DNA from: Ephemerocybe angulata
Lineage: Eukaryota; Basidiomycota; Agaricomycetes; Agaricales; Psathyrellaceae
NCBI GenBank assembly: GCA_013368325.1
Contig: JAACJK010000165.1
Span: forward strand, 434,001 to 498,000
DNA: 64,000 bases
Direction of reading: 5' to 3'
Shown: positions 26,077 to 64,000 of the stretch, in pieces
Layout of the letters: each line of letters opens with the position of its first letter
Numbering within the stretch: the first letter of the stretch is position 1
The notes under the pieces: model-generated
What the model was told of the DNA's origin: nothing
Database searches by the model: none
What the model saw: the letters and a program-made list of their open reading frames with translations, nothing else
Made by a program: the position numbers and the translations under genes

Positions 26077-27769
26077 ATGGCGAGTGCCATGTGCATCCCG
26101 GGGAATCCAGACATCGCAGGCATCGGCGTTCGCATTGCGATCTACGCTCAGAATCTTCTCTGCTCCTTCCCAGCTTTCTGGGCACTCGTCGACGGCAAAG
26201 TGACCGAAACCGAACTGGAATCAGCCGAGAAACAGGCAACAACCAACCTCGTCCTTGCATTCGCCATCCTTATCTCCTCCATGGTTCAGGCCACGACACT
26301 GGGATTGACGAGCTACCATGCCAACATCGTCCTCAGCATGTCCTGGATGAACAATACCAACACGTTCATCTACTTCCTGCTCTACGTCCAACACAAGAGT
26401 CAACCTACTCCAGGTTCCGGACACATCGTGGAGCCCACTTTCCTTGCATGGGCGAGGCATATTAGATGCTCGTTCCTTCCCGGTGCGAACCATGCCACAT
26501 GTAGCGCCGTTGATTTTGTCTGACGGGATTGCTGTCAGGAACGAAATCAGGCAGAGGAAATCATATTTCAAACGCAGAATCCGGGCAGTTTGGCACAGCC
26601 TCTGTGCTGGCTGTAGGCGCCGAGACTGGGTTACGTGAGTTGGGAGCTTCTTAAACCATTCCTTTTGTCCTGAAACCAACCTCTCGATAAAATTTACGAT
26701 TATAACACCAGACCTAGTAGATACCCCAAGACCTGAGAACCTAGATGGACCAGGTGCTCTTTCCAATGAGGAAATGGGCAATGGACGTCAAAAAGGTAAG
26801 TCATATAACTTTAAAACACTTGCGCCCGGCTGATCAAGTGCACCAGGGGAAACTGTCGACGCACGCACGGCTGCTAAGAATCTCGTCAAGCGCTACGTCT
26901 TGCCTTTGGGTTCACTCCATTTGAGCCTTATGGCCGCGCTAGGGTTGTGGCTTTGGAGCGACATTCGCGGTTTCGGGAACATGCGGGACACGGCGAACAA
27001 CTGCGCGGCGGAGCATGCCCTCATATCGATTATCGGTACCCATATTCCATTTGCATCGGGGGCACTGCGGATCGTCTCCTTCGTCATCTACAGTCTCTTT
27101 CTGGTTCCAGGGCTCAACCTCCTCCTCCCTATAGTGGTGTTCCTTGGTTTCCACTATTGTGCTCGGGGTTCACCTCCAACGATCATAAGGCTAGGTCCAC
27201 GTAGAGAACGTATCACACTACGGGAAGTCGGACATGCCATCATTTGGCCAAGCCTTTGGGGGATACTAGCGTTGGAGGTGCTTCGGGGGTGCATCTGGGA
27301 CCCCTCATTCCGCTGGGTCCAGAAGTTCATCGCACAGTGGTGGAGCATATTTCCACCTGTTCTCGGTTTGGTCTTCCTGTTGGCCATCAACCTGGTCTTC
27401 ATCATCGACATCGAGCTCACGCTGAAGCAGAATGCGCCCCTCCAGGGTCATGACGAAGCCGTGTGGAGGTTTGGCCAAATCCTGGCAATCCTTCTACTAT
27501 TCATGCCCCTTCGTGATCTTGCCGAGGCCCTTCTCGCCCGTAAGATGCAAAAAGAAATGAACCTGGGTCTCGAGGGCGCCGTCAATCAAAAGCAATGGGA
27601 TGCAGTCCTTGCATTTGTTGCAAGGGGGGCAGATCCCAATATTGATATGCGAGGTGCGTCTCCACTCCATTCGCTGAGACCACATCATTTCGACTGAGCA
27701 AGAGGCCGGTCTATCAGGAGAAACGACCGCAATGCGAGTCGCGTACCTTTCCAATAGAGTGGACGTTGT
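26077..27769 (+). pseudogene. Membrane/ankyrin gene copy C, 5' part, split by a 35 kb insertion
   Basis: Exons fit 26077-26482, 26539-26634, 26712-26795, 26847-27653 and 27718-27769, all in phase 1 as in copy B. The encoded part has the seven hydrophobic segments and the first divergent ankyrin unit (ARGADPNIDMRG), plus a longer loop than B between segments 5 and 6. The exon is cut after GACGTTGT at 27769 and resumes at 62984. Read through into the insertion, the protein would lose all its main ankyrin repeats. No other lesion is seen, so the gene was probably functional until the insertion. Confidence 0.8.
27762..27769. repeat. Left 8 bp target-site duplication (GACGTTGT)
   Basis: Identical to 62984-62991; the next bases on either side differ between the two ends. 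Keeping one copy rebuilds RVDVVKALLDAG, the expected ankyrin helix, and copy B has GACGTTGT at the same place (near 17087). Zisupton elements are reported to make 8 bp duplications. Confidence 0.85.
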
Positions 27770-28020
27770 CACATGCGTCAGCTGCTAGGATTGATCCTTC
27801 TGCAAATTTATGCAGCCGAAAGGATTGACGCCCAATCCTAGCCTTTCGGCAATCCTAGCACTGTATTTCCGACAGGCTGGGTGTCAGGTACGACTTCACA
27901 ATATCAATCCTATCACTATCCTTCCAATCCTAGCAAAATCCTAGTGCTGTAGACTTTGACCTTGTCACGTAGTATGGGTCATCGTATAGGATTAATCCTA
28001 GTCTACTGCCAATCCTATTC
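27770..28020. repeat. Left terminus with subterminal AATCCTA repeats
   Basis: About nine copies of AATCCTA or its complement in 250 bp, e.g. 27785, 27834, 27852, 27904, 27927, 27937 and 28010, and the palindrome TAGGATTAATCCTA at 27987-28000. Most read AATCCTA on the plus strand. Clustered subterminal repeats are typical transposase-binding regions of large DNA transposons. Confidence 0.75.
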
Positions 28021-28425
28021 AAGTAGTAGTGGTGGTGTATCAATAGCCAGCCATAGATACATTACAGGGGTATACGTAGTCAACTTGAAAGGATGATATC
28101 CAGAGTCCAGACTCAAGTCAGTGCTCGCTCTTTCCCCTTTTGCGTAGTCTCAAAGATGAGATTCGTGGCTATACTCCGAACCGTTGGAAACTGCAGGAGG
28201 GTCTCTTCACGCAAGCCGCGGTATCGAAATAGTATGTGACTGCAGCCTACATTCACCGGGCCAATACGACGGTCCCATCGGTGAAGGAGCCATTGGTCCG
28301 TTCCCGGTGAGTATATCTCAAGTGCACGGTCATCACGGAGCCCAAGCTGCGAGAGCATCGAGCGAGACTCCGATAAGCGGAGACAATGGTCTTGATCCGC
28401 TTCAAGTAGGACCTCGCGGAAGCGA
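28021..28425. other. Gene-free stretch inside the element
   Basis: Short ORFs on both strands without recognisable similarity; probably the downstream region of the convergent-end gene at 28426-29448. Confidence 0.4.
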
Positions 28426-29448
28426 TTATTGTCCTAACAGGTATATCAGTATAAGTTGCCGGGTTATGTAGAGCTTTGTTTGGCGCACCATTGTCCAGAA
28501 GTACACAATAACGACTCGTGGCACGAACGGCACCAAGACGGGAGGCGAGCCATGCTCAGAGTCACTGTCGGAGACTTCAATCACAATTGCGTTGCCTTTG
28601 GAGGTACCTTCGCCTCTGGTCACAGATGACACAGAGGCCGTTCGCTGAACATGGTCGTTTTCGGATTCCGAGTCTGAGCTGATGCTGATGGTGGAGTACC
28701 GGGGTCGCGCTGCGGGTGGGGAGGGACATGGGAATGGATTGGGGGCAGGAGGGCGAACTGGGGCCTGAGGAGGTACGGGATGATCTGTTGGAGGTGTGCT
28801 TATATCACCATCGTTGTTGCTGAGATCGAATGCCTTGACACGGGCGTGCTTTGGAATACCGAGGTTGTCACAAACTTGATCGAAGCACGTGGCTTGGATT
28901 ATTGTTGTGCGTGCGGCCATTGTCTTCAAAGTATGATCCTTACGTGGGCACTCCCGGAGCTCCTCCCTCATAATAAGAAGCCTTGAAAGCTTGTTATCGG
29001 TAAGAAGAGTCCCTTCGGATATTCCCTTTGTAAAGAAGCGCGTAGCCTTAAGACATTCTGGAGCTCGAACACGTCTATTTGCAAGTGTTGCGCACTGGGA
29101 ATAAATATTAGTTGTGGAAAGGCGTCAGATGGCTTGTTGCATGCGCACCTGTAGGTACCATGCTCCAATCTTATCAAATCTATCTCTTCCAACCGACAAT
29201 GAGTATCCATTAACTGCATGTCCATTATGGACAGGCCGTGCTATGGTCTTGGGTTTCTCGGCAGCACGGATGACTTCAAGGTGCTGGAGAAGTTGGCGGT
29301 TGCACTCACGCCGTGCATCGGTTTTTTTCATGCCCCGGAAGTGAGATGAAGACAGGTAGCCAAGGCGAGGTGCCTTTCGACTTGTTGAGGGAGGTGTTGC
29401 CAAGCCGAGGGCGGATTGTTTCCTCTTGGGAGTGGTCGTCGTAACCAT
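28426..29448 (-). CDS. Cargo gene of unknown function, divergent from KDZ 1
   Basis: Two exons fit: 29448-29149 and 29094-28426, joined in phase 0 across a 54 bp GTGCGC...CCCAG intron. The N-terminal half is basic and Thr/Ser-rich (MVTTTTPKRKQSALGLATPP), followed by a mostly helical charged region (LLIMREELRECPRKDHTLKT). The C-terminal part is Pro-rich and then Ser/Asp-rich (STISISSDSESEND and VIEVSDSDSEHGSP). These acidic Ser stretches look like SUMO-interacting or nuclear-protein linkers, but that is only an impression. The gene shares a 460 bp intergenic region with the KDZ transposase, so co-expression is likely. A third intron near the 3' end cannot be excluded. Not recognised. Confidence 0.55.
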
Positions 29449-29908
29449 TGCTAGAAGGGTGCACTAAATCAATCATTCAAACGAGTTATATATGAGCCAG
29501 TATCTATGGTCCCGTGGTTCGTATTGTATCTGCTATTGTCTATGGGGCTGTGGACCATCAGGGGCTCCACAGGCTGCGCTGTCTTGCTAGTCGCTCGCAA
29601 GTTGTTGCAGCGTGTTACAAACAATTATAACAATTAAATACCTGTTCTATAGCAACGTCTGGCCCATTCAGGGCTGATATAACAATATATGGTTACCAAG
29701 TCGACTTGCGGGCCTGTGTAGCATAGCAGCAAAAAATTGGGGAGACTCGTCACTCAGGCGACTATTGGGCGATTATCGTAACTCGCAACATTGTCGCCGA
29801 CTCGCAACGGAAAATGAGGGACATTCTTGACTATAAAATGGCTAAAGAACTTCAACGAACTGCTATACCACATTAACCACCTAATACTCGAGCTCTCTAG
29901 GACAGCAT
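29449..29908 (+). promoter_or_regulatory. Divergent intergenic region with TATA box for KDZ 1
   Basis: TATAAA at 29833-29838 lies about 75 bp upstream of the KDZ ATG (29909). Upstream, ACTCGCAAC and GCGACT words repeat around 29740-29812 (for example GTCGCCGACTCGCAACGG), which could be protein-binding sites. Confidence 0.5.
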
Positions 29909-32900
29909 ATGGCTATACAATCAAGGCTTCACCGTGTCCGTGGAGGAACAGCATCATTTGATGACTCCTCCGATGAAGAAACGGAGGTCGAGATTACCAG
30001 CGTTCGAGATCCAGATACCGGAAAGGTCAAAACCCACTATGTCCAGTTCACGAGCTCAGCCTCGCTTTCAAACGCCGATATTCCCTCCCTATCCCTGGGT
30101 GACACCAGCATCTTGCTTGCAAAGACACTGTTGTCTGAGTTTGACTCCCCCGCTTCTCCGGCTACTGGTAGCCAATCGAAAGAAGAAAACTGTACAACAG
30201 TACCACTGCCTACGGCCACCCCAGATCCCGAGCACGAAGCACCGAAGGTTCAAAAGCCACAGGTAATTATCCAAATTATATTATGTTTATTTCGGACTGT
30301 CATTTAATGTCTTCAAAAATGTCAGGGTGCCTCGACGCTGCTACAGCCATTTATTGAAACTGCCGATAGCCTCCAAAATGCGATTTTTTTCTCTGAAACG
30401 CATCCTAATCTTGGACAGCCATGCCGATGTGGATCGAAGGCGGACGCTCTCTACACATGCCGGGATTGCTTCTTGGCACCTTTATCTTGCAAGAAATGCA
30501 TTTTGGATGAGCATAGGGCGCTTCCATTCCACCGTATATCCGTCTGGAATGGAGCTTTCTTTGAGCAAACATCTCTTGGCAATCTAGGCGATATGATCTA
30601 TCTTGGACACCTCGGTAACGCCTGTCCTCACCGTGCAAGCTCAAGCAAAGGTCGCAAATTCACTCTTGTTCACACCAACGGGTTCCACGAAATGCGAATT
30701 CAATTCTGTCGCTGTGATGGTTCTCCTGAGGAATACGTCCAGCTCATGCACGCCCAACTATTTCCCAGTACCATCGCACTCCCGCAAACAGCATTCACAT
30801 TCGACCTACTATCCGATTTCCACACCCATACGCTCACCTCCAAGAAATCGCCATACGACTATCACGAGGCTCTCCGACGATTAACAAACTCAGCCTTTCC
30901 ACAAGATGTCCCTGTACGTTACTGTACCCAATATTTACCGTCACAACTTGACTGACTAATTAACTCACTGCACATAGGATCGGTACCATGAATTTTGTCG
31001 TGTCTCTCGAGTGTGGAGATACCTCTCAAGTCAACGCCAATCTGGCCAAGCTCATGAGATTGACCGGCTTTTAAAGGAAGGTCGTTTCCATACAATCGTG
31101 GTACGCTGCCCGGCATGTCCAGATGTCGGCTTCAATGTAGAAAAGGCGGAGATTGAGCTCGCAGGGGAGGATGAAAGGTACGAGCAACTACATACCAACA
31201 CACACCGAATTACTGACTTTATCATATTCACTTTAGGCACAAGTATACACTATTTATCTCGGCCGACGGCAACTACCGTCTACAGCGTAAAGCCAAGAAC
31301 GATGATCCAGACGATGTGGCACTAAACGATGGCCATGGTTGCTTCGCTAGGACGCAAGATTATCAAAAATGGCTCTCAAGTCAGGATGAGGTTGACGATG
31401 TAAGTGCCAAATCAATGACTGATAGATTTTGGGACTTACCATGCGTATCCTAGACGGGAATATGCGCCCATCTTCGTGCTGTGCGCCTGCAGAACATTGT
31501 TAAGTTTCGAAACGCGGTCATTAGCGGTGTGGTGGCTATACAGTGTGCGCGGCATGGATTTTTTATGCCCCAAGGTGTTGTCGACCTTAGCAAGGGCGAA
31601 GCGTAAGTCTATTGTTTTTATTTTAAGCTAATTGCACTGACTGGTTGCTACACAGCTATGCTCGTACGGACTATGCCCTGAACCGCTCTTTGAGTGATCA
31701 GTCCGACCAACGCTGGATCATGCTTAGCTACGACATCTGGTGCTCGTACTCAGCGAAGCTCAAGAAACGGTTCGCAGAGCTCTTCCCTGAGTCAGCTGAG
31801 TTGATACAGAAGCTGCGTGGGGCCGTACCGAAGATGCACATTAAGAACCATATTGTTGCGTGTCAGCAATTGTGGTCCTTCAATTACCTCCGTAACTCGG
31901 GCCGAACCTGCGGAGAGATGATCGAGACGACCTGGTCAGACTTGAATCAGGCAAGTGGCAGCACTCGCGAACAGAATGACGGGCATAGGCACGACACATT
32001 GGATGACTTCATGAATTACTGGAATTGGAAGAAATTCCAAGGCATAGCTTCGACAATCGCTGAGGACTACGCTAAGGTTATGAAACGATTGCCCACACTG
32101 AAAGCTAATTTTGAGCAGTTCACGAAGCGCTTTCCCACCGAGCTTATTCAAGAGTGGAAGTCGATTGATCGTGATCCGTATCGAGACGATAATAAGGTCG
32201 TCCATAGTGTCTACGAGGCAACCATTACAAAAGGCATGTTCTTATTGTTACTTTTATTGTCCCTACCCAATTCACGCTGCACCACAGGTCCACCCACTCA
32301 GGCACAGGCTTATCAAGACTCGGTCGATGAGGAGCGGGTTCGCCAGCTTTCTAAATCAGGCGGCGTTGGGGACAGTTTAATCATCAGCAAAGGCATTGAG
32401 CTTGAGGATCAGCAGTGAGTGCAGCATTAATTGACTTGAGTAGCCTGGCTCATGGTGGCATTCATAGATTGGCCATTCTTGAACTCGTTGCAGACCCTTC
32501 AAAGGACAAGGAACATCTCAAACATATCTCCGCAGAGCGCCGGACTCTTTATTATCGTATCAACAATTGGATGAAGATGTATGCCACCAGCTACCCACAT
32601 CCAGACAACTCGAAGCCGATGAGCGAGGATGAGCCAGAGAAAATTGTGCTTCCATTACCGTCAAACTTAACCCAGCTGAGTCGCGCATCACGGAAGCTCG
32701 ATTCCTTAACTCGGACTGAACTCAAGCTACGGGAGGGGCAGGCACACGATGGTCTGGCAGAGCTACGGATGGCAATCAAGACATATAACTTCAACGTGAA
32801 GTTCAAGAAGGACAACGTCGTGGGTCAAGGACCTAACACGCGCGCTGAAATGTTTTTGCGCACGCTCAACTCTGAAAAAGTACGTGCTGGGCAGAAATAC

Positions 32901-33455
32901 AAGCGGGCGCGGAAGGCGCTTCTTCGGTTGGGCTTTGACCCTCATGATCCGACCCTGCGACCTCTGGATGAGAAGGACCAGGCTACGGAGCAATCAAAGA
33001 ACACAAGTATCCCATCCAAGTTGGGGGATTCAAAGAAGAGCGAACCGTGGTTTTGGAATGTGAGCCATCCCGGGGGTTTAACAGAACAGGAGAAAAAGAA
33101 GTGGAGTGTCGAAAGTGAGTACATCTCTATCCCAATCACATCAAGTGTAACAGGCTCTAACTGCTCTCATACTCCAGTGGATAGAGTAAAATGGTTCAGG
33201 GACAAAGCAGTACGGGACCGTGCAGAAGAAGAAAAAGAAATTCTCGAGGAAGAAATGAAGCGCGTGGTTGCTTCGTTTCGGAAGTATGCTGATGTTTGGA
33301 GTCATCTCGCGGAAGAACAACGAAACAAAGACGTGCCAGGAAAGTCGAGCTATGCATTACGCAAGGTCGCTTTGTACACACGGCTTTCTGACGATGCGGA
33401 AAAGCTGTTTCATAATGCCCGCAAGCCGAAAATCTCTGAACCATCTTCAAGTTGA
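29909..33455 (+). CDS. KDZ transposase 1, intact
   Basis: Nine exons (29909-30262, 30326-30913, 30978-31177, 31237-31399, 31454-31602, 31656-32233, 32288-32414, 32468-33114, 33178-33455) give 1027 aa. Residues about 151-190 form a CxC2-type cysteine cluster (CRCG, then C-DC, C-KC, and H--LPFHRI) typical of KDZ proteins. The RNase H-fold core has CARHGFFMP with KGEAYARTDYAL, then LSYDIWCSYS, MHIKNHIVACQ, and GEMIETTWSDLNQASGSTRE followed by HDTLDDFMNYWNWKK. The C-terminal third is helical and charged. The enzyme should cut and join the element ends. Intron 6 uses a GC donor (AAG|GCATGT); because it is 54 bp it could also be read through, adding 18 mostly hydrophobic residues. No frameshift or stop is seen. 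Confidence 0.9.
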
Positions 33456-33599
33456 CCTCAACTCGTACTATTTCCATAGACATATTACACAATAAATGTA
33501 GGGCTTGGACCGTCCGACCAGTAGACGACAATAGTATCGCGCATTGCTTTGGTGTTGCTTTGACCGCCGGGAGATCAGCCCTTCCAAGCCACGACTATC

Positions 33600-33643
33600 T
33601 GTGCTTTGTGCTGCAGCCCATTGTGCTTTGTGCTGCAGCCCAT
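33600..33643. repeat. 22 bp tandem duplication
   Basis: TGTGCTTTGTGCTGCAGCCC plus AT occurs twice in direct succession between the KDZ 1 gene and the next cargo gene, just upstream of a weak TATA-like ACTATAAGTATT (33655). Confidence 0.6.
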
Positions 33644-33762
33644 GGGCCACCGCAAACTATAAGTATTGTCCCATCAACTCAGACGGCGGTACAAGCCCAA
33701 TTACCACTTGAATACCACCCCCTCATTCCCAACATCCTGTCCACTGCCGTCAACAAGTCAAC

Positions 33763-36518
33763 ATGTCCGAGAAAATTGATTCTCCAGCACAACCGTCGAG
33801 CACCAAATTCACCGCTGCCCTACCCGACCAACATGCCTTCACGACTAGCGAATCTCAGTTTCTGAATGAATACGTACCCGAATACGTAGCTGAATGTGCT
33901 CGATTGGACAGTATATCCACTGAGCAACACCCCGACAAGAACTCAGGTCGCCGCACAGCTGGTGTCTATGGCTTGAAGAAGCAGTGGTCAGACGCGAAGG
34001 TCTACCCTGCATTTGTGAAAAAGTTCTACACCTCTGAGCACGACCGCCCGAATGCAGTATCATTGAAGAAGGTGAGTGTTCATTCCGTATGCCTCCTACT
34101 CTACTCACATCACCATCCAGGCCATTAACAAGTACCTGAGCAATAAGCGCACCTTAATGAAGACAAAGAAAGGCGTTTCAGCTCAGCCGTCAGTACCAGC
34201 ATCTGCAGCAGCCCCTAGCAAGCGATCCAAGCCTCGAAAGGTCAACGCTGCTGGGATTTTCGCAACGGAAGTAGGGAACAAAGACGGCATACGGGAGAAG
34301 ATGCAGGAGAAGCGGCAGGAGGCAGGTGGCTCGGTGCAGCTGAACTTCAAGGCCTACGACGGTGCCAAGACGGAGCTATACAACAGCTTGCCCGATACCA
34401 AGAAGGAACGCTATGAAGCGCTCGCGAGAGAACAGAACGAAGCGGCTGAACGCAAGCCCGATGCTGATCACCTGTACCAGTGCGTAAACTCACCCTTTTT
34501 GTGAGACGATGTAACAATAGACTGACAATTGATATAGAAACCAAACCACCATCGACAAGACGGTCTTCACGGCTTTGGAAGCCCTTGTCGGGGATGATTG
34601 GGGCCAGCACGGTCGAGTAGTGTTCTTCGTTATGGGCGCATTCCGAGATCGACGAGAGAAGCTCAAAACCTTCAAGTAGTGATCACCACGGGTTGACCCC
34701 GGGTCACGGCGCAGCAACCCGCACCCGCACCCGGGGTAACCCTACCCGCATACCCGCAGTTTTACCCGTCCGAACGAACCCAAAAACGGCCAAATCGGAT
34801 GAGATTTGGCCGAGATATGGTTGATTTATGTCCTATGACATAAATGGGCCATATCTCAGCCAGTTTCCGTCCGATTTGGACGTTCTCGGGCTCGTTTTGT
34901 AGGGGACGGGTAGGGGAACGTCCACCCGCACCCGCACCCCACGGGGTACAACCCGCGAACCCGTGCGGGTTGCGCGACCCGTGGTTATCACTACCTTCAA
35001 GTACGCCATTATAACCTGTCACGAGTAAAGTAGGGTATATTAACCATGAGAATTCAATCTTTCTAGGACATCTATCGCCCCAGCGTCTGTCGAGGGATTT
35101 GAACTTGAAGTTGATGACTATGCGGAACGAATACGTGAGCCATTCAAGAAGTGGGCCCTCAAAGCACTTCCACGTACGTGCTTTGCGCAACCCGCTCTCA
35201 TCACGCACTAACCAGTTCCCCTAGGACCCAATGCAACTCGCATTTCTGGAGAAGGGGTTGGGCTCACGTACACCGAAGATGGGTATCCCAGTATTCCGGA
35301 TGTCCCCGATGTCGAAGCGCTTTCTGCAAATGCTGTACGTTCAGTATTAGCAGAGTATATCAGATCAGCATGGAGTACGTCGACTTACAGTTCAGTCTAA
35401 TTACCAGTACTAACCCTTCCGTCGACGTTGCAGATGCTGCTTTACCTGCTGATCAACGTGATATACCTGTACCCTGGGTACGCCTACAGACCGTCACAGA
35501 CAGAGCAGGAGACCTGCGCAACCCCGGCCTGGTAGCGGCATTCCCATCTCTCGACCCTGCAACAATGTCACTGAACGACCGCTACGCATTGTACGGGATA
35601 ATCATTACTCACCAGCGCAAAGGGGCCCGACTGGTGGAGTTCATTGTGTCGGGGAGGTCGTCTCAGTCTGTAGCGGATGGACTCTGCGATCATGAGCCAT
35701 CCAAAGAGCCGAACGATGAAATCGAGGAGGTACCTGATCCGGCGAAGCCCCAGATGGGACGACGACCACCCCAGATTACACCACCACCCCCCGCGACACC
35801 TCCTCCGGTTACACCCCTGACAGCAACACCTCCCAAATCGACAGCTCCTCCAGCAACAACTCCCAAAGTAACACCTCCACCGGTTACGCCCCCGCCAGCG
35901 ACGCCTCCGGCCACGCCTCCCAAAGCGACACCTCGTCCGGTTACAGCTCCTCCGGCTACACCTCCCCGAGCGACGCCCCCGCCAGCGACACCTCCTCCGG
36001 CAACACCTCCCCAAGCGACTCCCCGCCCATCGACACCTCCTCCGGCTACCCCTACCACCTGTACTTGTCCGGTTTGTGCAACACTTCGCGCTGACTACTG
36101 TCCAAGCTTGGGTGCACAATAGCCGCTAATCATTCAGCATGCACAAGATGTGCGTCCTGTAGATGAGCCATCATTCCCCTCGGCTCCATTTCGGGTCGCT
36201 TATTCAGCCCAATTCCTGACCGCCTCGTCACTGCTCGCGCCCCCTGGGGCCGCCATCACTCCCGCCCAGGTTGACCGCTGGGGATATGCTGGACTAAGAA
36301 CTTTGATTTACCTGCCCCTACCTGCCAATCAACCCGTCAATGCATCTCGATCCAAGGTACGGATTCAGCGAGAAGATCGATCGGGCCTGGTGGGTGCGTG
36401 GTTGGGCTCGTCACTGGTGCCCCGGCCACTCCTTCAATGCGCACCGGGCTCCTGCACGGCGCTCAACCGCAAGCCTTGGAGCTGTGTGCAGCGGGGTTCT
36501 CGATTTTCCGGGAGATAG
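33763..36518 (+). CDS. Cargo gene with Thr/Pro-repeat C-terminal region
   Basis: Exons fit 33763-34071, 34121-34479, 34538-34675, 35067-35173, 35225-35374, 35434-36071 and from 36138 on. The N-terminal 100 residues end in a Lys-rich segment; exon 2 is basic (KRSKPRKVNAAGIFATEVG) with TKKERYEALAREQNEAAERK, which recalls the last helix of an HMG box. The middle (VPWVRLQTVTDRAG, NDRYALYGIIITHQRKGARLVEFI) is globular and unknown. Exon 6 encodes many ATPP/VTPP units. The 3' end is uncertain: frame 1 stops at 36518, while a second frame from about 36340 (GFSEKIDRAWWVRGWARHW) stays open to 36693, so an intron or a frameshift lies near 36350. Intron 3 contains a MITE. The gene sits in tandem with KDZ 1 on the same strand. 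Function not recognised. Confidence 0.65.
34668..34677. repeat. 10 bp target-site duplication of the MITE (left)
   Basis: ACCTTCAAGT at 34668-34677 is repeated exactly at 34993-35002. It overlaps the end of exon 3 and the GT of its donor. Confidence 0.85.
34678..34992. mobile_element. 315 bp MITE in intron 3 of the cargo gene
   Basis: Ends are inverted repeats: AGTGATCACCACGGGT at the left, AGTGATAACCACGGGT on the opposite strand at the right. The interior has ACCCGCACCCGCACCC runs facing each other and a central palindromic stretch (GACATAAATGGGCCATATCTC against its complement at 34800-34830). A 10 bp duplication fits a Mutator-type relative. It is non-autonomous: no ORF. The host intron grows by 325 bp and its donor context changes from GTACGC to GTAGTG. 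Confidence 0.85.
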
Positions 36519-36924
36519 TTCGTTAGCTACATTCGAACACGCAGAGTACGGCTATGTTGTGATTATGACCCCACTTCGCATTTCATACCGCCACCCGCTC
36601 CAGTACCCGGCTCAATACACAATACACCCATTTCGAAGGGCTACGTATGTCAAACCGCCGGCACCCCGATACACCAATTCCAAGCACCAGTAATGTAGAG
36701 CGTTTCTCTCCCTAAATACTCCCGCTTCATCCCCCATTTCCTACATGGGTAGCCCATGATAAATATGCCCAACTGATAGTACAAGCACCTGGACTGAGAC
36801 TCTGCGCCTCTCACAGGAACCTCTTGGAATATTTGGGCAGTCGGCATTTGACCGTCCTCAACATGGGCCTAACCTAATTGGGTTACCTCCCTCAGATTGA
36901 TATCTAACCAAATTGAGCTTAGCA
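36519..36924. other. 3' region of the cargo gene, no separate gene
   Basis: Holds the alternative open frame to 36693 described for the upstream gene, then non-coding AT-richer sequence. Confidence 0.4.
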
Positions 36925-37215
36925 TGATACCCCGGCGCCCATCGAAGATACACGGCGCTTCAGCACCCCGGCGCCTAATCGAAGATACACGTGGGCGCTT
37001 CAGCATATACCCCGGCGCTTATTCGAAGCTACACTTCGGTACCTCCGAATACACTTCCATACCTCCGGATATACCTCGGCGCCTCAGCATACACCCCAGC
37101 GCCTAATCGGAGGTACACCTCCGCGCTTCCGCATACACCCCAGCGCTTAATTGGGGATTCACCTCGGCGCCTCAGCATATGCCCCGGCGCTTAATCTATT
37201 CTGTACGCCGGCGGT
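36925..37215. repeat. 43 bp imperfect minisatellite containing GGCGCTTA
   Basis: About six units built on CCCCGGCGCTTAATCG, GATACAC and CAGCATA, e.g. at 36970, 37010, 37095, 37138 and 37181; the last three are spaced by 43 bp. GGCGCTTA is the same word that recurs across the window. Confidence 0.7.
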
Positions 37216-37410
37216 TAGGATGTTCAATCGAGAGGCCTTGTTTTTGCAGTGTGCACAGGGTATAAAGTTGAGGTGACTAGATATTACACGGGCGCTTATT
37301 GAAGCAGCAGCTCCCTTGGCGCGGTATACAATTCATTACACCATTCTAATGCACTCATTACATAGTATTTCTGTCAGAAGAACATATCAACGGGGAAATT
37401 ATGTTTAGAA
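37216..37410. other. Short non-coding gap
   Basis: No ORF of note; one GGGCGCTTATTGAAG at 37290. Confidence 0.4.
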
Positions 37411-37412
37411 TA

Positions 37413-37740
37413 TATCGTCCGGACTCCGAAGCACCAGTGCGATGCACCCAATCCAGAATTCGTGGACTTGAGCTGCTCAGTCGGAAACACCAGACCAATG
37501 CACACAAACGCGGATATTACACTTAGAACATATCGTCCGGACTCCGAAGCACCAGTGCGATGCACCCAATCCAGAATTCGTGGACTTGTGCTGCTCAGTC
37601 GAAAACACCAGACCAATGCACACAAACGCGGATATTACACTTAGAACATATCGTCCGGACTCCGAAGCACCAGTGCGATGCACCCAATCCAGAATTCGTG
37701 GACCTGTGCTGCTCAGTCGGAAACACCAGGGCAATACACA
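37413..37740. repeat. 118 bp tandem repeat, 2.8 copies
   Basis: Units start with TATCGTCCGGACTCCGAAGC at 37413, 37531 and 37649, almost identical; the third is cut short near 37735. Located just beyond the 3' end of KDZ 2. The six-frame ORFs here are by-products of the repeat. Confidence 0.9.
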
Positions 37741-40376: not shown

Positions 40377-40381
40377 ATCAT
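40377..40381. repeat. 5 bp target-site duplication ATCAT (left copy)
   Basis: ATCAT at 40377-40381 and 49714-49718. A 3 bp reading (TCA with termini starting TGCACC) is also possible because of base sharing at the junction. Confidence 0.7.
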
Positions 40382-42840: not shown

Positions 42841-42849
42841 CTCAACTAT

Positions 42850-48660: not shown

Positions 48661-48662
48661 GC

Positions 48663-49436: not shown

Positions 49437-49474
<38 letters not shown>

Positions 49475-51857: not shown

Positions 51858-51874
51858 TAGCGAATGTATTTACA

Positions 51875-54894: not shown

Positions 54895-56047
54895 TCAGAC
54901 ATACACGACAGAGCCTCTGTTGAATGCAGTCTCATAAGCCTGAAACGCCGTCTGGAGGGTGCAATGGCGACTGAAACTAGCCGAAGCAACGCCCGTGACG
55001 TAGGGCGATGTGCTCTGCCTAAAATGGAGAGCTAAAAATGAGTGGATCTAGAGCATATCTTAGGAAAACCCACCACCCGCCGAAGATCCCGACACGTGTA
55101 CCCTTAGTTATTACGTAGTAGCGCTCTTCTGCATTGAGGAGTCAGAATACAATGACTAAATCGATGAATTAGAAGAAAGGAATACTTGCCACCGGGTCCA
55201 GTGAAAACAGCGTTCATGGGCGCAGGTGCTGGCTGAGGGTTGCTACTGTTCGGCCCCAAGGAATCGAAGCCAGGAATGATGGTAGAGATGGGATACGTAG
55301 GCGCGGGCGCGAGGTTGACGGGGGCACCGATGGCGACGGTGGTAGTGACCTGAGGAGCAGCGGCAGCGGCGGGGGTAACCTGAGGTCCACTAGCAGCAGA
55401 CGCGCGAGTAACTTGGGGCCCACTAGTGACCACAGGGGTGGTGACAGAGATCGACTGAGGAATGGCCAGGTGGGGCAAACCCATAGCCAGCTTGACCGAC
55501 TTGGACGGCAACTGGAGCGGGCGATGGGCGCCACCCGAGACATGGTCGGATGTATCAGAAGCAGAAGAATCAGAGTCCGCCGGGGAGGGAGCTGATAAAC
55601 GAAAAGGGTTAGATGGAGAAGAAGTAGGATGGAAACGAACAAACCCCGATTCCCTGAGAGCAGGCCTACTGGATCGACCTCCTCCACCTTGGGGAGGGGG
55701 CCATCGTCATCGCTCGAGTCAGAGACTTCGTCTGGAACCAGCAAAAAGCCGGTTCCATCGCAGGCAAGACAAGTCTCTGGATCTATCCGTACAATGATGT
55801 TCACTACGATACTAACCAATATTGTAAATCCACGTACGATACTGAGTTTCGCCTATCGAAGCAGCCTCGAACATATGACGACCTGCGGGAATGTGTTTCA
55901 GTGATGAATGGACGAGCAAGGGCCAAAGAGAGACTTACGACTATCAAACGCACGGATTACGGCCCCCAACAAGTCCTTCATGGCCGAGGAGAGCTTCGTG
56001 CCGCGAAAGACGTTGCGCTCCTGATTCATGCTAGACTGCTTTGCCAT
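54895..56047 (-). CDS. Protein with C-terminal RNase H1 N-terminal (viroplasmin-like) domain
   Basis: Six exons (56047-55939, 55882-55817, 55782-55645, 55591-55193, 55128-55074, 55018-54895) give exactly 296 aa. The N-terminus is helical (SAMKDLLGAVIRAFDSRRHM), followed by DPETCLACDGTGFLLVP with a CxxC, an acidic stretch (DSSDDDGPLP) and an Ala/Thr/Pro/Val-rich linker with repeated GPQVT. The last ~60 residues read YYVITKGTRVGIFGGW, then SPYVTGVASASF and AFQAYETAFNRGS. That is the pattern of the small domain that binds RNA/DNA hybrids at the N-terminus of eukaryotic RNase H1; no RNase H catalytic domain follows. A role in handling nucleic acid hybrids is inferred. Shares a 281 bp divergent promoter region with the 1064-aa gene. 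Confidence 0.7.
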
Positions 56048-56328
56048 CGTTGGACTGTGATAGAAGAGTGCGGGTGTGGTTGTCAAGTACAAGAAAAAAA
56101 GGCGGAGAAAGTGATTGCGGTTGAAGGAAGATTGGTGAGGACTTTATAGATATCCGCCGTCTGTTTACGGGTTGTTTGCTTTGAGATTGAGTGTTGATAC
56201 GTGCGATAGAGCTCGCGTGCGAAGGTTCAGAAGAGTGATGGAGGCGAACTGGGAGCCTAAGCGTGATGACCTATCAAGACTAACTTTGTATCATTTGGGC
56301 TTGACCATATGTCGTTAATTAGACCCCT
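56048..56328. promoter_or_regulatory. Divergent intergenic region
   Basis: 281 bp between the starts of the minus-strand RNase H1-N-like gene and the plus-strand 1064-aa gene. Nothing distinctive beyond AT-rich ends; shared promoter inferred from head-to-head layout. Confidence 0.35.
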
Positions 56329-59300
56329 ATGAGCTCGAGGAATATGGTAGTACTTCAGTCATCCATAAATCCTACACCAGTCAGTGGTGTATCCCAGATA
56401 TCCATTTTTCCCTTCTACGACCCTTCTATGGCACCTCCAGGCTGGGCGTCGCCAGAGCAGACTGCGCTCCTCACCGGCCTCATCCCAGAGTATGAGAAGT
56501 GTCAAGTCGATCGTCATTATAAGCCCTTTTGGACCAAGCTTTACTCCAGCTACCTCACCCAAAATCCCCTTATCCAAGATTTGTATCCAGGACGTACAAT
56601 CCAAGATCTCGATGAAGCAGAGATGGCTTCTTACACGACGGCATTGGAGAAACTACAGACTGTGAGCCGTCCACTTTTAACTATCCTCCCGATTGAATAC
56701 TGATAATTGGCTTAGCGTCTTCGCGAATGGTACCGCTGGCGGTGTAATACTCGAAGCAGAAGGCTCGCAGTTACCATACCCAAGAACATTCTCAAGTCAA
56801 TCTACTCTCCACGTACTCGAGGTTTGAAGGCATACGAGGCTTTTTCAAAGCTGTATCCTGAGGATGTCCGGACTGCTCTGGACGCACGGTGTGAAGAAGA
56901 AGGAGTCACGGGAAAATCTGTACTGCAATCTTGGCACGTTGTGTGCAAGGACCTCTGCAACACTGCCTCGGCGGAGCAACTGAAAGCGATCGATGATTAT
57001 GTCGAGGCTAAGAATGAGAAGGATGAGGCAGATGAACCTACGGATTCTAAACGGTACGTGTCTACCTTCGCCCGATGCCCATTCTATATTCTCACACCGG
57101 GCCCCCCCTCATGTGCATAGGTACCACAAAGTCCTCCCCGCAATCCTCAAAGCCGCCGTTGAGCCTGCCGTCCGCAAGGCGGGCTTGATGGCGCTTATCA
57201 CTTTAGTCGGGCCGGTCCCGGAATCAAACGGGAGGATCTCAGCATGGACGTTCGTACTCTTTCTTTCTTGACCAATTCTCTCCATTACTGACATATGAAC
57301 TAAGCTTGCAATTCGGCGACAAGGATAATACACCACTTTTCTCTTCATCCTGGGTAGACCACGATCGAGTGTATGTGGAGGCGGTAGCTCGTTTCGCAAA
57401 GCGATATATATTCAGTATGTCATTTCTTTTAACTTTACTGGCTGAGCACTTCTCACATTCCCTCTTCAAGATCAATCTTCAACTCAAGAGAAGACAGAAT
57501 CTGGAACCCAAGACCCATCGTCTCCGCCCCACGGGGGAGACGAGCAAGTTCGCGATGGCAGTCAGCAGAACCCTCTGCCCGATCGCGATGACTCGGATGG
57601 TCAGCTGAAGTCTCCGCCATCTGGTGTACCCAATTCATCCTCATCCGCGAACAACGATATACCCAATGTGGCTTCACCCGCTGGTATCCATCCACCTAAT
57701 CCATCTTCTTCCCCGGGTATCAACCACGCCTTACCCTTTCCCAATGGTAGTAATCTGTCGATTCCTTCTCCTGCCAACAGCGATCTCGGCTTCGGTTTTG
57801 AGGGACTTGATGCATCGACTAATCGGGGCCCGTTGTTGCGGCTGCCTACCCCACCACCGATTCCCCGTCACTTTCCCGCCCCAAGCGCCCAGTTTCCGAT
57901 GCCCCTGCACCACCGTGACCACATTCTGGCGAGGGAGAACAACCTCTGCTCGGTCACATTGGACAGCGTCGCGGATGGAGATCTGATCAGGATGGACTCG
58001 ACTTACCAAGGAATGCCGCCAGCTGAACTCGGTGAGTCAGGTCTGGGGACGGCTCAGAAGGAGTGGCAGACGACACCTGTCCTTGGCTGGGACTCGTTTC
58101 TGGGTAGATCGTCGAAGTACGGGCGGCCATCAGTCAGTGCGATACCTTCTCCCGACGAAGCGCCGCAGAACCCAGAGGACCAGACCATATTCGCTCCGAC
58201 GGCGACGTATTCACCGAGCACGTTCATTCTTCCTCCCTTCCCCAATCCTGGGAGACCAACATCCCCCAACGACACCACGCCTGACCTGTGGTCAAACTTG
58301 GACATCGACCTCCGTGGTTCTGGGCAGGATATCCCTGAAAGACCTCACATGAGCATGATACAGGGGCATGGGCTACCCCCGGATGCCCCTTTCATCGCAA
58401 GTCAGCCTGTTGAGCTTCTACAGCCCGATTCTGCTAAGTCTAGTGACTCCTCAACGGCTCCTTGGGGTCTTGATCTACGATTGCGATCGATGTCTCCAAT
58501 CATCCCTCCTACACCACCTCCATCGCCTTATGCCGCACCCGCTGTCATCGAGGCTCATCACCATGTGGCAATCCCGATACTGGGTGACTTCCCTGGTTCT
58601 GCCGCACCATCGAGTGCGACTGGTGGCGTCGAGACGCACCCAAATGCAATCACAAGCACACCTGTCCCTCAGCCCGTCCGGAGCCATCTCGAGACCTCTC
58701 CCCCTCAAGCGATACTCGGCGCAATGACTGTCGGCTCTGTTCCTCCCAAAGAAGACGCTGTAAGCCCAAACCCCTCATTGACAACCGCGCAGAGTCCCGC
58801 CGCCCCCGCTACCGCTTCGACCGCGCTGGCCGCTTCTTCTCCGCTGACCGCTTCTACTGCACTGACCGCTTCTACCGCGCCCACCGCTTCTTCCGCGTTG
58901 ACTCCTTCTACGGCTGAGCCTGTTGCCTCTACCGCCGCTTCTGCGGCTTCTACCAACCTGGGAGGGGATGTGCCGCAGACCCCGGCTTCGACTTCCCATG
59001 GGTTGGGTCAAGATCCTCGCGATCTTGCGCCGCCTGTTATTCGCCGATCGGGGAGGGGGATCGTCCCATCGAAAACAAGAGAGAGGTTACAGCAGATAGG
59101 TTCAAATATTCCTCTGTTTTCGAGACCTATCGCCAAGGACTCCACCGACCCACTCACCCCTCCACCTTGGTTCTCGTCGGCGATGACGGATCTTCGCGAT
59201 CCTGAGCTCGGTGGTGAGTGGGTTGCCTTGGTCGACAGGTGGGCGAATCTGGAGCAGGCTCTTGGGTACGGGAAAATGTTCAAGGTATGTAGTTTTTGAT

Positions 59301-59860
59301 TGTGTGTCCTTCTGACGATCTATTGACTGTTTACAGGGATCGATGCCTGTGAAAGGACGGCCTGACGAATGGACGAAATGGACGAACAAGAGCGCACATG
59401 GCGCGCGTAACCATTCACGACCTCCCTTCATTGACGACCCAGCCGACATCGGCACCGCGATCACCAAGTGGTGGAAAGCCATGCGACCCCCGACTCGCTC
59501 TGACGATGGACAGACCTGTGAGGAGCCTCCAGTCAGTACCGAGGCTTGGGCTCCCCTCCGGAAGTCCGGGTCTAATGGTACGATATCGCTCATGATGGTC
59601 ATGCTGTGGTGGGGTCGTGCCGCGTTGCCAGGTCCAGAACGCTTCCGGGAGGACTCTCGCGAGGACTGGAAAGCTTTGGTGGCCGATGTGTATGCCTCTT
59701 TTGACGTGCTCATCTCGACCATACCACCTCGAGGCGAAAAGCGAACTCTCGACGAGAACACTCAGCCTAGTGACGCCGATCCACAGAAAAAGTACGTGAT
59801 CCCACCTCTACTTCACGCGTGAACGAAGCTAACATGGCCACCAGAGCTCGTCAAAGCTAA
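56329..59860 (+). CDS. Large cargo protein, 1064 aa, agaricomycete family of unknown function
   Basis: Seven exons (56329-56661, 56716-57053, 57121-57249, 57305-57414, 57471-59284, 59337-59791, 59845-59860) join in frame to 1064 aa. N-terminal ~330 residues are helical and charged (WASPEQTALLTGLIPEYEKC, LREWYRWRCNTRSRR, AYEAFSKLYPEDVRTALDAR, YHKVLPAILKAAVEPAVRKA). The middle ~500 residues are low complexity, rich in Pro/Ser/Thr/Ala, with ALTASTA-type repeats. The C-terminus has GGEWVALVDRWANLEQALGY, ITKWWKAMRPPTR and SNGTISLMMVMLWWGRAA. The W-x-x-L-V, WWK and NG...WWG pattern matches an abundant agaricomycete family of unknown role that I associate with transposon-rich regions; that is from memory. 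Alternatively the last exon could splice to the ORF at 61971-62588. Confidence 0.7.
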
Positions 59861-60892: not shown

Positions 60893-61285
60893 GTGAGGCT
60901 TCTTCTGGGTGTATCAGGCTTCTTTGGGTGTATCAGGCTTCCTCTGGGTGTATCAGGCTTCCTCTGGGTGTATCAGGCTTCTCCTGGGTGCATCTGGGTG
61001 CATCAGGCGAGACGTGGGTGTATCGCTGTTGTACGATTCAGGGGTGGGTATCCTCGAGGAGACGGTGGGCTCCTGGCTCTGAAGTGCGGCACAGACAAAA
61101 TTTCTCAGTCTAAAGTAATCCGTCTACTTTGAGGGATCAGGGTCACGGTAAGCATGGTCGGCTTGTTCTGGGTGCATCGGGCTTCCTTTGGGTGCATCGG
61201 GCTTCTTCTGGGTGTATCGGGGTTCTTCTGGGTGTATCGGGGTTCTTCTGGGTGCATCTGGGTGCATCAGCCTACTTACATGTCC
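60893..61285. repeat. Two clusters of a ~20 bp minisatellite
   Basis: GGCTTCCTCTGGGTGTATCA and close variants (GGGTTCTTCTGGGTGTATCG) repeat at 60896-61015 and 61160-61272. The two clusters are followed by similar flanks (TCGAGGAGAC near 61053 and TCGAGGGGAC near 61320), so an approximately 260 bp segment was duplicated as a whole. Confidence 0.8.
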
Positions 61286-61494
61286 TGTATCGCCGTGGTA
61301 TGGTTCAGGAGTGGGATCCTCGAGGGGACAGCGGTGGACTCCTGGCTATGAAGCAGGCTGAAGCTCGGCACATTTTACCTCTCTGAATAGGGAATGCGTG
61401 TTATTATAAGCTCTGAGTCCACCGCCTTAGATACCGATGTAATGCAACCAGATCCCAAATTCGGCTGGCCGAATTTGGACTGGCTGATCCCAAG

Positions 61495-61580
61495 GGGAAA
61501 AAAAAGTGCACTTGAGCAGGTTCGAACGCAGGACTTCCCCAGCTCAAGGTGGCGACGCTACCAGTGAGCCACAGTACCAA
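61495..61580 (-). ncRNA. tRNA-like Pol III unit (possible SINE head or tRNA pseudogene)
   Basis: On the minus strand TGGCTCACTGG (61571-61561) fits the Pol III A box and CGTTCGAACC (61528-61519) approximates the B box; starts are 43 bp apart as in a tRNA. A run of eight T at about 61505-61498 would terminate. The T-stem and acceptor stem do not pair properly, so it is not a working tRNA. Confidence 0.4.
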
Positions 61581-61970
61581 CGTCAGCGTTGGTTTTGTAA
61601 TTAACATCATCCGCGGGCATCTGATCAGGCCTGCCCAGGTTTGACGACTCTTTTCCGCGTTCGCTATACGGCTTATCCGGGGTTCTGTGGTCCCAAATTG
61701 TATCGCAGTTATACCAAAGGTATTACATTGTTTATTCGAGTGAATAGTGCCCTCGCAGCGGCTGGGATACACCTAGAAATCGGGTCGGATTGGCGGGCTA
61801 ATTGCGCTATATTGATGGGATTAGTCAGGTAAGCTCTTCATCAAACAATCATACGATGTCCTAATCCGAATCGGAGGGAGATCTGCGCAAGGGACTGAGG
61901 CCTCAGCGCTCGCCCATTACTTAGGTTAGACTGCACTGCTCGATTCAAATTTTTGATTGACCTGTGTTCC
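61581..61970. other. Gene-free stretch
   Basis: Short ORFs, none recognised; may be the body of a SINE-like unit or the upstream region of the next ORF. Confidence 0.35.
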
Positions 61971-62588
61971 ATGTCAGATAGCGATAGCTCCTTGGAGAAG
62001 CATCCGCAAGAAGCCAGTGGCACCATTTGGGAGGGCGGGATGGCGGGAATGCCCCTGTCCAAACCCCTGTTTTCGATTGTGTGCATCGGAAGCACCAATA
62101 AAAAATGCCGAAAGAGCGTATTGCAGCTTGATACACCCATTCCTTGCACAACGGCCCAACCGTCACTGCCAGATTGGCCAATGCCAAAAGTGCACCACTC
62201 GGTTGAGATCAGTTACAGTCCTTTGTGCATTATTCTGACAACATCGGCTGCCCCTACACCTCCCCCAGCGACACCTCCTGCAGCGACGCCTCCCAGAGAG
62301 AAACCACCCGTAAAGAAACCGAAGGGGGGCCGCAAGAAAACCTCCCTGGCTGTGGCTCAAGTGCTGGGCGGCCCATCTGTAGGTCGATCCACGAGATCAT
62401 CAGCGCGTCAAGGGGCTGGGGCGGCGAATGTTGAGTTGAATGGCGGGAACGGAGCGAAGGGAAAGCGGAAGCGCGATGACGACGAGATGGAGGCGGGTCC
62501 CGACCCTAACCGCCGGCGGTGGGAGGTCTACGACCCAGTCACGAAGGAGCTCGTGGAATGGGGGTATTGGGGAAAGAAGAAACATTAG
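61971..62588 (+). CDS. Hypothetical ORF with basic C-terminus
   Basis: An uninterrupted frame of 205 codons from the ATG at 61971. The first ~85 residues have no clear character. The rest begins APTPPPATPPAATPPREKPP, then a Lys-rich stretch (KKPKGGRKKTS), KGKRKRDDDEMEAGPDPNRR and WEVYDPVTKELVEWGYWGKK. The TPP run ends in CCCCCAG, so it could instead be the terminal exon of an upstream gene (either the 1064-aa gene or a lost copy of the 33763 gene, which also has ATPP repeats). It is the last gene before the right end of the giant element. Confidence 0.45.
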   Translation: MSDSDSSLEKHPQEASGTIWEGGMAGMPLSKPLFSIVCIGSTNKKCRKSVLQLDTPIPCTTAQPSLPDWPMPKVHHSVEISYSPLCIILTTSAAPTPPPATPPAATPPREKPPVKKPKGGRKKTSLAVAQVLGGPSVGRSTRSSARQGAGAANVELNGGNGAKGKRKRDDDEMEAGPDPNRRRWEVYDPVTKELVEWGYWGKKKH

Positions 62589-62616
62589 TCGAGTCGCAAT
62601 GTGAATTATTCAGCGA

Positions 62617-62659
62617 TCGTGGGAAATCCCGTCCAGGGTGGATCGGATTTCCCACGATT
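62617..62659. terminator. Perfect 14 bp stem hairpin after the last cargo ORF
   Basis: ATCGTGGGAAATCC (62617-62630) and GGATTTCCCACGAT (62646-62659) with a 15 bp loop. It lies 29 bp after the stop codon. In a eukaryote this is not a classical terminator; it might be an RNA 3' structure or a remnant inverted repeat of a small element. Confidence 0.4.
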
Positions 62660-62699
62660 CTTGAAGACATCGAGTTGTCTTCCCCTCTTTGACTTGTGC

Positions 62700-62983
62700 G
62701 TCGTGGCATTACGATTATAGTAGGATTAAATTAGGATTGAGAATATCTAATGTTAATTTGTATGGACTTGCCTCCAATAGAAGTTATAGAACATAATACA
62801 CTTGGACTTGAGAGAATGAGAAGGATTGTAAAAGGATTGGATAGCAAACCTAGCGAGGGAGTCTCAAATCACCGCGACAGGCTCTGGGAGATGGATGAAG
62901 GCTTGGATTGGAAAAGGATTAGTGAGCTATCCTACTCCCTGCAAATATTCGGACTAGGATTAATCCTACCAGCTGACATCCCT
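62700..62983. repeat. Right terminus with subterminal TAGGATT repeats
   Basis: TAGGATT or AAGGATT occurs at 62720, 62731, 62821, 62834, 62915 and 62955, mostly in the orientation opposite to the left end. TAGGATTAATCCTA at 62955-62968 duplicates the palindrome at 27987-28000. GCAAATATTC (62941) mirrors GCAAATTTATG near the left end. Confidence 0.75.
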
Positions 62984-64000
62984 GACGTTGTTAAGGCATT
63001 GTTGGATGCAGGTTCAGATCCAAATATCGAACGTAGGTACCGAACACTGGGCTTATATACGAAGTCTTATTTTCATTTATCAGCCGGCGGTCCAAATAGA
63101 GGCACCGAAATCATCCAGAGGGAAAATAAAGCCTGCCTCCAGCTCCTGAGAAGCTATGATAATCGGCTCCTGGGTTCGTTCTTTATCAAGTCTCACATAA
63201 CAGTGCTGATGCTTTTGTCTACTTAGATGGGGTATCTGCGATGAAATCCATGGTGGTTGAGGGATATGGTGTGGGGGTCAAGCTCCTTCTCGCCGCGCCT
63301 GGGATCGACGTCAACGCGCCAGACGCCTGGGGGAGGACACCCTTGAGCTTTGCGGCCGAGAAGGGCCACGAAGCAATTGTCAAGCTCCTTCTCGCCGCGC
63401 CTGGGATCAACGTCAACGCGCCAGACACCTATGGGCGGACTCCCTTGAACTTTGCGGCCTTCTACGGCCACGAAGCTGTTGTCAAGCTCCTTCTCGCCAT
63501 GCCCGGGATCGACGTCAACAAGCCAAGCACCAGTGGGAGCACACCCTTGAGTCTTGCCGCTCAGAACGGCCATGAAGCTGTCGTCAATCTCCTTCTCGCC
63601 GCGCCTGGGATCGCCGTCAATGCGCCAGACACCAATGGGCGGACACCCTTGAGCTCTGCAGCCTGCTGGGGCCGCGAAGCTGTTGTCAAGCTCCTTCTCG
63701 CTGCGCCTGGGATCAATGTCAATGCGCCAGACACCGGCAGGAAGACTCCCTTGAGTATTGCGGCTAGGGACGGCTATGAAGCGGTTGTCAAGCTCCTCCT
63801 CGCCGCGCCTGGGATCAACGTCAATGCGCCAGACACCAGGAGGCGGGCACCCTTGAGTTTTGCGGCTGAGGGCGGCAACGAAGCTGTTATCAAGCTCCTC
63901 CTTGCCGTGCCTGGGCTAGAAGTCAACGCGGAAGACACCAGTGGGTGGACGGCCATGACTTGGGCGGCCTTCAAAGGCAGAGAAGCGATTGTCCAGGACC
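62984..64000 (+). pseudogene. Membrane/ankyrin gene copy C, 3' part, continues beyond the window
   Basis: Exon 5 resumes with the right GACGTTGT copy (62984-62991) and ends at 63032; further exons are 63084-63173 and 63237 onward. The frame encodes KALLDAGSDPNIE, a divergent second ankyrin unit and then at least seven near-identical 34-residue ankyrin repeats (LLLAAPGIDVNAPD type). The cap unit (SGWTAMTWAAFKGREAIVQD) is reached at the window edge, so only the tail is missing. No stop or frameshift within this part. Cut off from its promoter and membrane domains by the 35 kb insertion. Confidence 0.85.

Follow-up and report, generated by a model that had tools for sequence, protein, structure and literature searches.

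An ankyrin gene of the mushroom Ephemerocybe angulata (order Agaricales) is interrupted by an interval that we read, with a probability of about 0.93, as three nested cut-and-paste DNA transposons. The middle one belongs to a multicopy, Kyakuja-like KDZ family that is free of TET/JBP and carries a transposase and three further genes, here called A, C, and B. The window analyzed is the whole 64,000-nucleotide stretch at positions 434001–498000 of contig C152 (JAACJK010000165.1), in a genome of 58.7 Mb and 232 contigs. The interval consists of ~9.0 kb of an outer element (KDZ1; 27770–36055 and 62258–62984), 16.9 kb of the middle element (KDZ2), and 9.3 kb of an innermost element with long terminal inverted repeats (TIRs). 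Each of the three has its own ends and its own target-site duplication (TSD), and their subterminal motifs differ. An earlier note on this DNA had described a single 35-kb KDZ transposon with cargo, a description that does not hold for an outer element having only ~9.0 kb of its own. The KDZ transposase genes that it placed inside are indeed there and number two, KDZ1 and KDZ2, each with the KDZ catalytic domain and the CxC-type cysteine cluster (CxC2) of the KDZ superfamily.

The interval is taken to be a nest because the half containing KDZ2 recurs at many sites without the half containing KDZ1. In DNA searches of the genome, the gene for KDZ2 recurred in many places together with parts of the right half, in the same order and at 65–80% identity. 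Matches to 27771–37921 were limited to a 320-bp repeat (34676–34995); because 39 of 96 candidates were scored for one half and 39 of 61 for the other, this absence is not absolute. The end motifs of KDZ2 were defined outside the window, at the points where copies that are nearly identical, but differently flanked, cease to be homologous. The copies on C157, C18, and C69 all lose homology at the same single base, at CACCTGTATGTGTC, and at the other end the copies on C68 and C157 do so at CAGCCGATAGTGTC, read inwards. The corresponding ends in the window are CACCTGTACTTGTC and CAGCCGATGTTGTC, with the TSD CCCCTAC. This pair (36056/62250) matches the motifs at 12 of 14 positions at each end and is the only one in the window with at least 11 of 14 and an exact 7-bp TSD; no such motif pair with an exact 7-bp TSD occurred in 200 Markov-simulated windows. 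A first scan, for 6–9-bp TSDs in 36000–37000 and 61250–62000, had given no convincing pair. A wider scan with the CA..TG rule gave seven exact 7-bp pairs out of 80,640 tried (~5 expected by chance), among which 36056/62250 had the best terminal match. Exact matches to the end patterns number 8 (left) and 24 (right) in the genome; six of the 8 are ends of TSD-bearing copies, and 15 of the 24 have gene B within 8 kb inwards. At up to one mismatch, the right pattern occurs in 268 places, compared with 162 for the reversed control.

Were the interval instead one KDZ transposon of 35 kb (or 26 kb) with cargo, the end-like sequences inside it would have arisen by chance. Its outer ends and direct repeat are real, but the internal ends fit family ends that were defined independently, with an exact 7-bp TSD, and the KDZ2 half occurs at many sites on its own. 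We consider a single element very improbable.

Ten copies of the KDZ2 family could be placed at both ends, and each has an exact 7-bp TSD that differs from copy to copy (Table 1). Seven are contiguous (18–28 kb) and three are split over contig ends; the split copies are ~17.1 kb long, as summed from the C157 and C68 positions. The shorter copies suggest a base unit of ~17 kb. KDZ–A or A–B spacing is widened in four of the six copies longer than 19 kb (window, C98, C18, and C125). Spacing is not widened in those on C16 and C152, and the extra length therefore lies elsewhere in them. The C98 copy was at first taken to extend to 414.8 kb, which proved wrong. A multi-gene KDZ unit with defined ends, which the earlier note proposed at 26–35 kb, does exist, in the form of KDZ2 and its family (~17–28 kb); it is not the outer element, and the figure of 26 kb is simply the interval minus the innermost element. 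TSD matching also suggests that contigs C157/C68, C69/C157, and C18/C208 adjoin via KDZ2-family copies that broke the assembly.

Comparison of the flanks with paralogs places the interruption of the ankyrin exon at 27770–62984. The two flanks had been called halves of one exon, and joined together they align continuously over the junction in all five paralogous loci compared (78–85% identity; L056–L060, all on C152, with L058 inside the window at 16219–17092). The alignments have a one-base gap, from one extra element base in the query. By our own reading of the flank sequences, rejoining restores a single ankyrin repeat, GETTAMRVAYLSNRVDVVKALLDAGSDPNIE. Related ankyrin genes are clustered on contig C152: apart from the disrupted gene, five loci there match its left half over nearly the full length, and one of these lies in the window.

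The 8-bp direct repeat GACGTTGT reported at the junctions (27762–27769 and 62984–62991) is genuine, but the better reading is a TSD of 7 bp, ACGTTGT, with the G at 62984 counted as a base of the element, because the 30 terminal bases of the two ends then align ungapped at 22 positions; with an 8-bp TSD, 4 of 30 match. The outer element, inserts included, is accordingly assigned on its sequence to 27770–62984. Read inwards, its ends are CACATGCGTCAGCTGCTAGGATTGATCC and CAGGGATGTCAGCTGGTAGGATTAATCC. The inverted terminal sequence claimed for them is present, with the 21-base core GTCAGCTGSTAGGATTRATCC occurring once forward and once reverse and AGGATT arrays at both ends; the two arrays hold 17 (10 + 7) of the 43 AGGATT copies on either strand of the window. 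These two core matches are the only ones in the 58.7-Mb genome at up to three mismatches (a reversed-pattern control likewise gives one forward and one reverse), so that the further copies with the same termini, for which the earlier note had proposed a search, were not found at this threshold.

A protein search that scored each of its 86 candidates gave 80 other genomic matches to the KDZ1 transposase, at 25–48% identity, and no closer relative in the genome. KDZ2 lies within another KDZ1 gene, gene D, a reading adopted because the insertion splits one open frame that is rejoined in frame: a TPPPATP–TPPPATPP repeat reads through the junction, and the frame stays open as far as the stop, against three stops in each of the two others. 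Nothing fixes the order of the outer and inner insertions, and KDZ1 has long open frames. The nest might thus have been assembled elsewhere and moved into the ankyrin gene as a 26–35-kb load under KDZ1 ends, a composite cargo transposition. We think this unlikely, as neither a second copy with KDZ1 ends nor a close relative of the KDZ1 transposase was found in the genome, and sequential nesting requires no additional step.

The innermost element lies within an exon of the KDZ2 transposase gene (50.9–37.9 kb, minus strand), which it interrupts. Its ends are CACCTTAG...CTAAGGTG, and its TIR arms are identical in 833 of 896 aligned columns, with ungapped blocks of 224–299 bases at 99–100%. KDZ2 relatives occur without it: the KDZ2 frame of the C98 copy is unbroken across the insertion point, and matching blocks adjoin within ~10 bases there in C98, C18, and C157. 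The KDZ-to-A distance is 11.9 kb in the window as compared to mostly 2.5 kb elsewhere. Like the surrounding KDZ elements, the innermost element has CA..TG ends and a 7-bp TSD. Three of its stretches are similar to open frames on C146 and C11, and the C146 frame presumably encodes a protein resembling the Ofd1/Tpa1 type. In the element's own frame the Ofd1_CTDD match is below threshold (E 0.087), and no Pfam family exceeded the cut-off in the four interior open reading frames (ORFs) scanned, a search that was not exhaustive for the interior. Related TIR pieces occur elsewhere, for example as a pair on C115 spanning ~10 kb. The element looks like a candidate Pack-type transposon, that is, a TIR element with host-gene fragments. 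The Pack-TYPE transposons of PMC8903248 have the same makeup but, in the accessible part of that paper, are reported in plants; the innermost element is fungal and has a 7-bp TSD.

Table 1. Features of the interval and copies of the KDZ2 family. Positions refer to the window unless a contig is given.
Feature	Position	Strand	Evidence or remarks
Ankyrin gene, left half and start of interrupted repeat	26834–27769	+	87% match at C152:577085, other near-full-length paralogs; joined flanks align 5/5
Outer TSD ACGTTGT, left copy	27763–27769	+	8-bp reading starts at 27762
KDZ1 element, left part	27770–36055	+	Terminal core, TSDs, KDZ domain; ends with left CCCCTAC copy
KDZ1 left subterminal AGGATT array	27787–28016		10 copies, both orientations
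KDZ1 transposase gene, read exon by exon	29885–33455	+	CxC2 7.7e-32, KDZ 6.9e-34 (Pfam)
Short repeat (~320 bp) in KDZ1	34676–34995		At least 26 copies among matches listed, 88–98% identity; internal inverted match
KDZ1 gene D, 5' part	35139–36055	+	Split by KDZ2; rejoined frame open
KDZ2 TSD CCCCTAC, left	36049–36055	+	CA..TG and TSD pair scan
KDZ2, middle KDZ element	36056–62250	+	26,195 bp; 16,858 without nested element and one copy of its TSD
KDZ2 left subterminal repeat arrays	36901–37742		GATRCACC-type motif weak
KDZ2 transposase, 3' half	37850–40382	-	KDZ 4.2e-34; KDZ 1.8e-21
Innermost element	40383–49712		TIR arms 40383–41226 and 48818–49712; TSD CATCATG at 40376–40382 and 49713–49719
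Stretch like open frames at C146	42874–43645		79%; further piece 44668–44790, 87%
Stretch like open frame at C11	47005–48076		86%
KDZ2 transposase, 5' half (CxC2)	49713–50964	-	CxC2 1.7e-38
KDZ2 gene A (MGRRAKY...), rough limits	51089–52027	+	Exon 51204–51854 used in searches
KDZ2 gene C, rough limits	54898–55706	-	C-terminal RNase H1 N-terminal domain; Cauli_VI 21.5 bits, cut-off 21
KDZ2 gene B, rough limits	56323–59822	+	DNA and exon searches, pN/pS
KDZ2 right subterminal array (GGGTGYATC)	60902–61290		Motif counts
KDZ2 TSD CCCCTAC, right	62251–62257	+	CA..TG and TSD pair scan
KDZ1 element, right part	62258–62984	+	TSDs, end alignment
KDZ1 gene D, 3' part	62258–62588	+	Rejoined frame open
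KDZ1 right subterminal AGGATT array	62722–62967		7 copies
Outer TSD ACGTTGT, right copy	62985–62991	+	End alignment
Ankyrin gene, right half, ankyrin repeats	62992–63999	+	Ank_2 4e-49 (ORF 63163–63999); joined flanks
KDZ2-family copy	Window 36056–62250		TSD CCCCTAC; 26,195 bp including insert
KDZ2-family copy	C16:686493–714043		TSD GCACGCC; 27,551 bp
KDZ2-family copy	C18:187256–210765		TSD TTCCTTG; 23,510 bp
KDZ2-family copy	C125:118275–143698		TSD GCTATTC; 25,424 bp
KDZ2-family copy	C98:380786–406802		TSD GTGGTGT; 26,017 bp
KDZ2-family copy	C152:384480–404213		TSD TGCGGCC; 19,734 bp; interior inverted relative to ends
KDZ2-family copy	C18:157363–175365		TSD GTCTTAC; 18,003 bp; left end picked among candidates by TSD
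KDZ2-family split copy	C157/C68		TSD GTAATGA; paired by TSD across contig ends
KDZ2-family split copy	C69/C157		TSD CGGGATG; paired by TSD across contig ends
KDZ2-family split copy	C18/C208		TSD GTACCTC; paired by TSD across contig ends

Exon searches of the genome yielded 81 KDZ loci, 40 gene A loci (43 rows minus 3 fragments), and 38 gene B loci (39 rows minus 1). The genes recur as a module. An opposite-strand KDZ lies within 16 kb upstream of 34 of the 40 gene A loci, a same-strand gene B within 30 kb downstream of 37, and both are present at 32; conversely, 37 of the 38 gene B loci have gene A upstream. Spacing is mostly fixed (A–KDZ, 2.4–3.0 kb in 29 of 34; A–B, 7.6–9.1 kb in 30 of 37). 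Some module loci are almost identical to one another, perhaps as duplicates created in assembly, so that the 40 loci do not represent as many independent insertions. One gene A locus (C11:248280–248885, 44% identical) has neither a KDZ nor a gene B match nearby; some others missing a partner sit near contig ends. For TET/JBP we used the 25 loci over the cut-off (of 30 rows) in a search with Pfam Tet_JBP only, which very distant TET-like types could escape. Of these, 20 have a KDZ locus no more than 12 kb away, and none has gene A or gene B within 30 kb. Among the 81 KDZ loci, gene A is nearby in 35 and TET/JBP in 20, with no locus near both and 26 near neither.

The KDZ2 transposase, represented by the C98 copy, had 2,037 relatives among 7,991 candidates scored in a protein search, and the matches listed include Coprinellus, Candolleomyces, and Suillus species. 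Gene C appears to encode a protein with an RNase H1-type domain, although the Cauli_VI match is barely over the cut-off and was obtained with a hand-spliced exon pair, single exons being below it. The pieces of genes A and B scanned had no Pfam family over the cut-off. The protein search with gene A returned six homologs, all from E. angulata; the best of five structural models had a predicted local distance difference test score (pLDDT) of 69.5 (next, 50.5), and the predicted structure had no Foldseek match at E ≤0.001. Raw ratios of nonsynonymous to synonymous differences per site (pN/pS) between the window and its relatives are low: 0.04–0.40 for KDZ2 exons, 0.47–0.49 for A (two comparisons), 0.28–0.51 for B, and 0.23–0.57 for C, with blocks shorter than 45 codons excluded and no significance test applied.

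We infer that A–C are accessory genes that serve the element rather than Starship-style cargo, because a KDZ upstream and gene B downstream accompany gene A mostly at fixed spacing. Host-benefiting cargo would likewise be expected to agree with the pN/pS values below 1 of A, B, and C. Against it stand the frequent company of KDZ (34 of 40) and gene B (37 of 40) and, Cauli_VI aside, the lack of any Pfam family over the cut-off in the A–C pieces scanned; we hold such cargo to be improbable. The captain of a Starship is a tyrosine recombinase (DUF3435). A Pfam scan of 28 translated pieces, which cover part of the open frames, found none. The earlier note's suggestion of a Starship counterpart is not favored, A–C looking element-serving and the KDZ2 lineage being most likely TET-less and Kyakuja-like.

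Several observations weigh against the interpretation as a nest with a KDZ2 family in the middle. Single end motifs at ≥11 of 14 are no more frequent in the window (2 left, 3 right) than in controls (2.3 and 2.8), and the left end pattern, at up to one mismatch, is not enriched genome-wide (242 places; reversed control, 265). The GATRCACC array of KDZ2 is faint at the left, with 4 copies versus 13 at the right. No matching left end was found for two of the nine copies searched besides those paired over contig ends (C152:606530 and C117:2419868), and the copy at C152:384480–404213 (L039, L067) has an interior inverted relative to its ends, its TSD still being exact over 7 bp. Synonymous sites in the pN/pS comparisons are near saturation. 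Gene D has no clear homolog, with two weak matches (E 2e-4 and 5e-4) for a repetitive query among the 7,995 best word-sharing candidates scored, and the evidence for its split is thus the TSD together with the repeat that reads on in frame. As KDZ1 lacks a second copy, its ends are drawn from one insertion and five empty paralogs.

The following comparisons extend to the accessible parts of the sources. TET-bearing Kyakuja elements have 7-bp TSDs, CA..TG ends, and no TIRs (Kojima 2025, PMC12730594), and the ten KDZ2-family copies with both ends placed show the same termini. Kyakuja and KDZ2 thus have in common the KDZ transposase, the 7-bp TSD, CA..TG termini without a true TIR, and occurrence in Agaricomycetes. 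The Kyakuja families described there carry TET/JBP, however, whereas KDZ2 has none nearby, and the outer KDZ1 differs from Kyakuja in its partial TIR (22 of 30). The KDZ2 family is most likely Kyakuja-like, a label taken from its ends and not from a transposase tree. The KDZ1–3 elements of Cryptococcus (~9–11 kb; PMC12810828) likewise combine KDZ with a cysteine-cluster domain and defined ends, and their size is close to that of the outer element; they have 4–8-bp TSDs, TIRs of 139–241 bp, and CxC1 domains, and are smaller than the KDZ2 family. Cryptococcus KDZ elements have been termed large mobile elements (PMC12510652), and the words KDZ and Zisupton do not occur in the accessible text of a review of giant transposons (PMC6431247). 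Starships, in Pezizomycotina, are also large multi-gene fungal elements, but they use a tyrosine recombinase and belong to another phylum; KDZ2 has a KDZ enzyme and a conserved small gene set. Variable cargo relevant to the host is a further mark of Starships; of the KDZ2 genes, A and B recur as a fixed set. A literature search returned no paper combining 'Ephemerocybe angulata' and 'transposable', and no description of such a KDZ module was found in the titles and abstract openings searched, so that an earlier description is possible.

The mechanism, timing, and activity of the elements can be proposed as follows. KDZ1 most probably inserted into the ankyrin exon, KDZ2, of another KDZ lineage, into gene D of KDZ1, and the long-TIR element into the KDZ2 transposase exon, the outer insertion not necessarily being the first. 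The KDZ2 transposase may bind the subterminal arrays, cut at the CA..TG ends, and make a staggered cut of 7 bp on insertion, and genes A–C might assist transposition or escape from silencing. Tentatively, and at somewhat less than even odds, KDZ2 could represent an undescribed lineage of large KDZ elements in which the module of A, C (the RNase H1 hybrid-binding-domain protein), and B replaces TET/JBP as a second route to mobilization or silencing escape, moving 17–28-kb loads in mushrooms. What had been misread as one giant element leads to a family whose ends are fixed to the base, with TSDs and with dozens of module loci in a single genome, and stacked insertions can imitate a giant cargo transposon. 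With the KDZ2 family defined, KDZ transposons with and without TET/JBP are directly comparable, and the absence of overlap between the two classes makes the role of the accessory genes testable.

Two minor features of KDZ1 remain. An HMG-box match in the ORF at 34076–34504 is below the cut-off (E 0.18). The ~320-bp repeat is perhaps, from its sequence, a miniature inverted-repeat transposable element.

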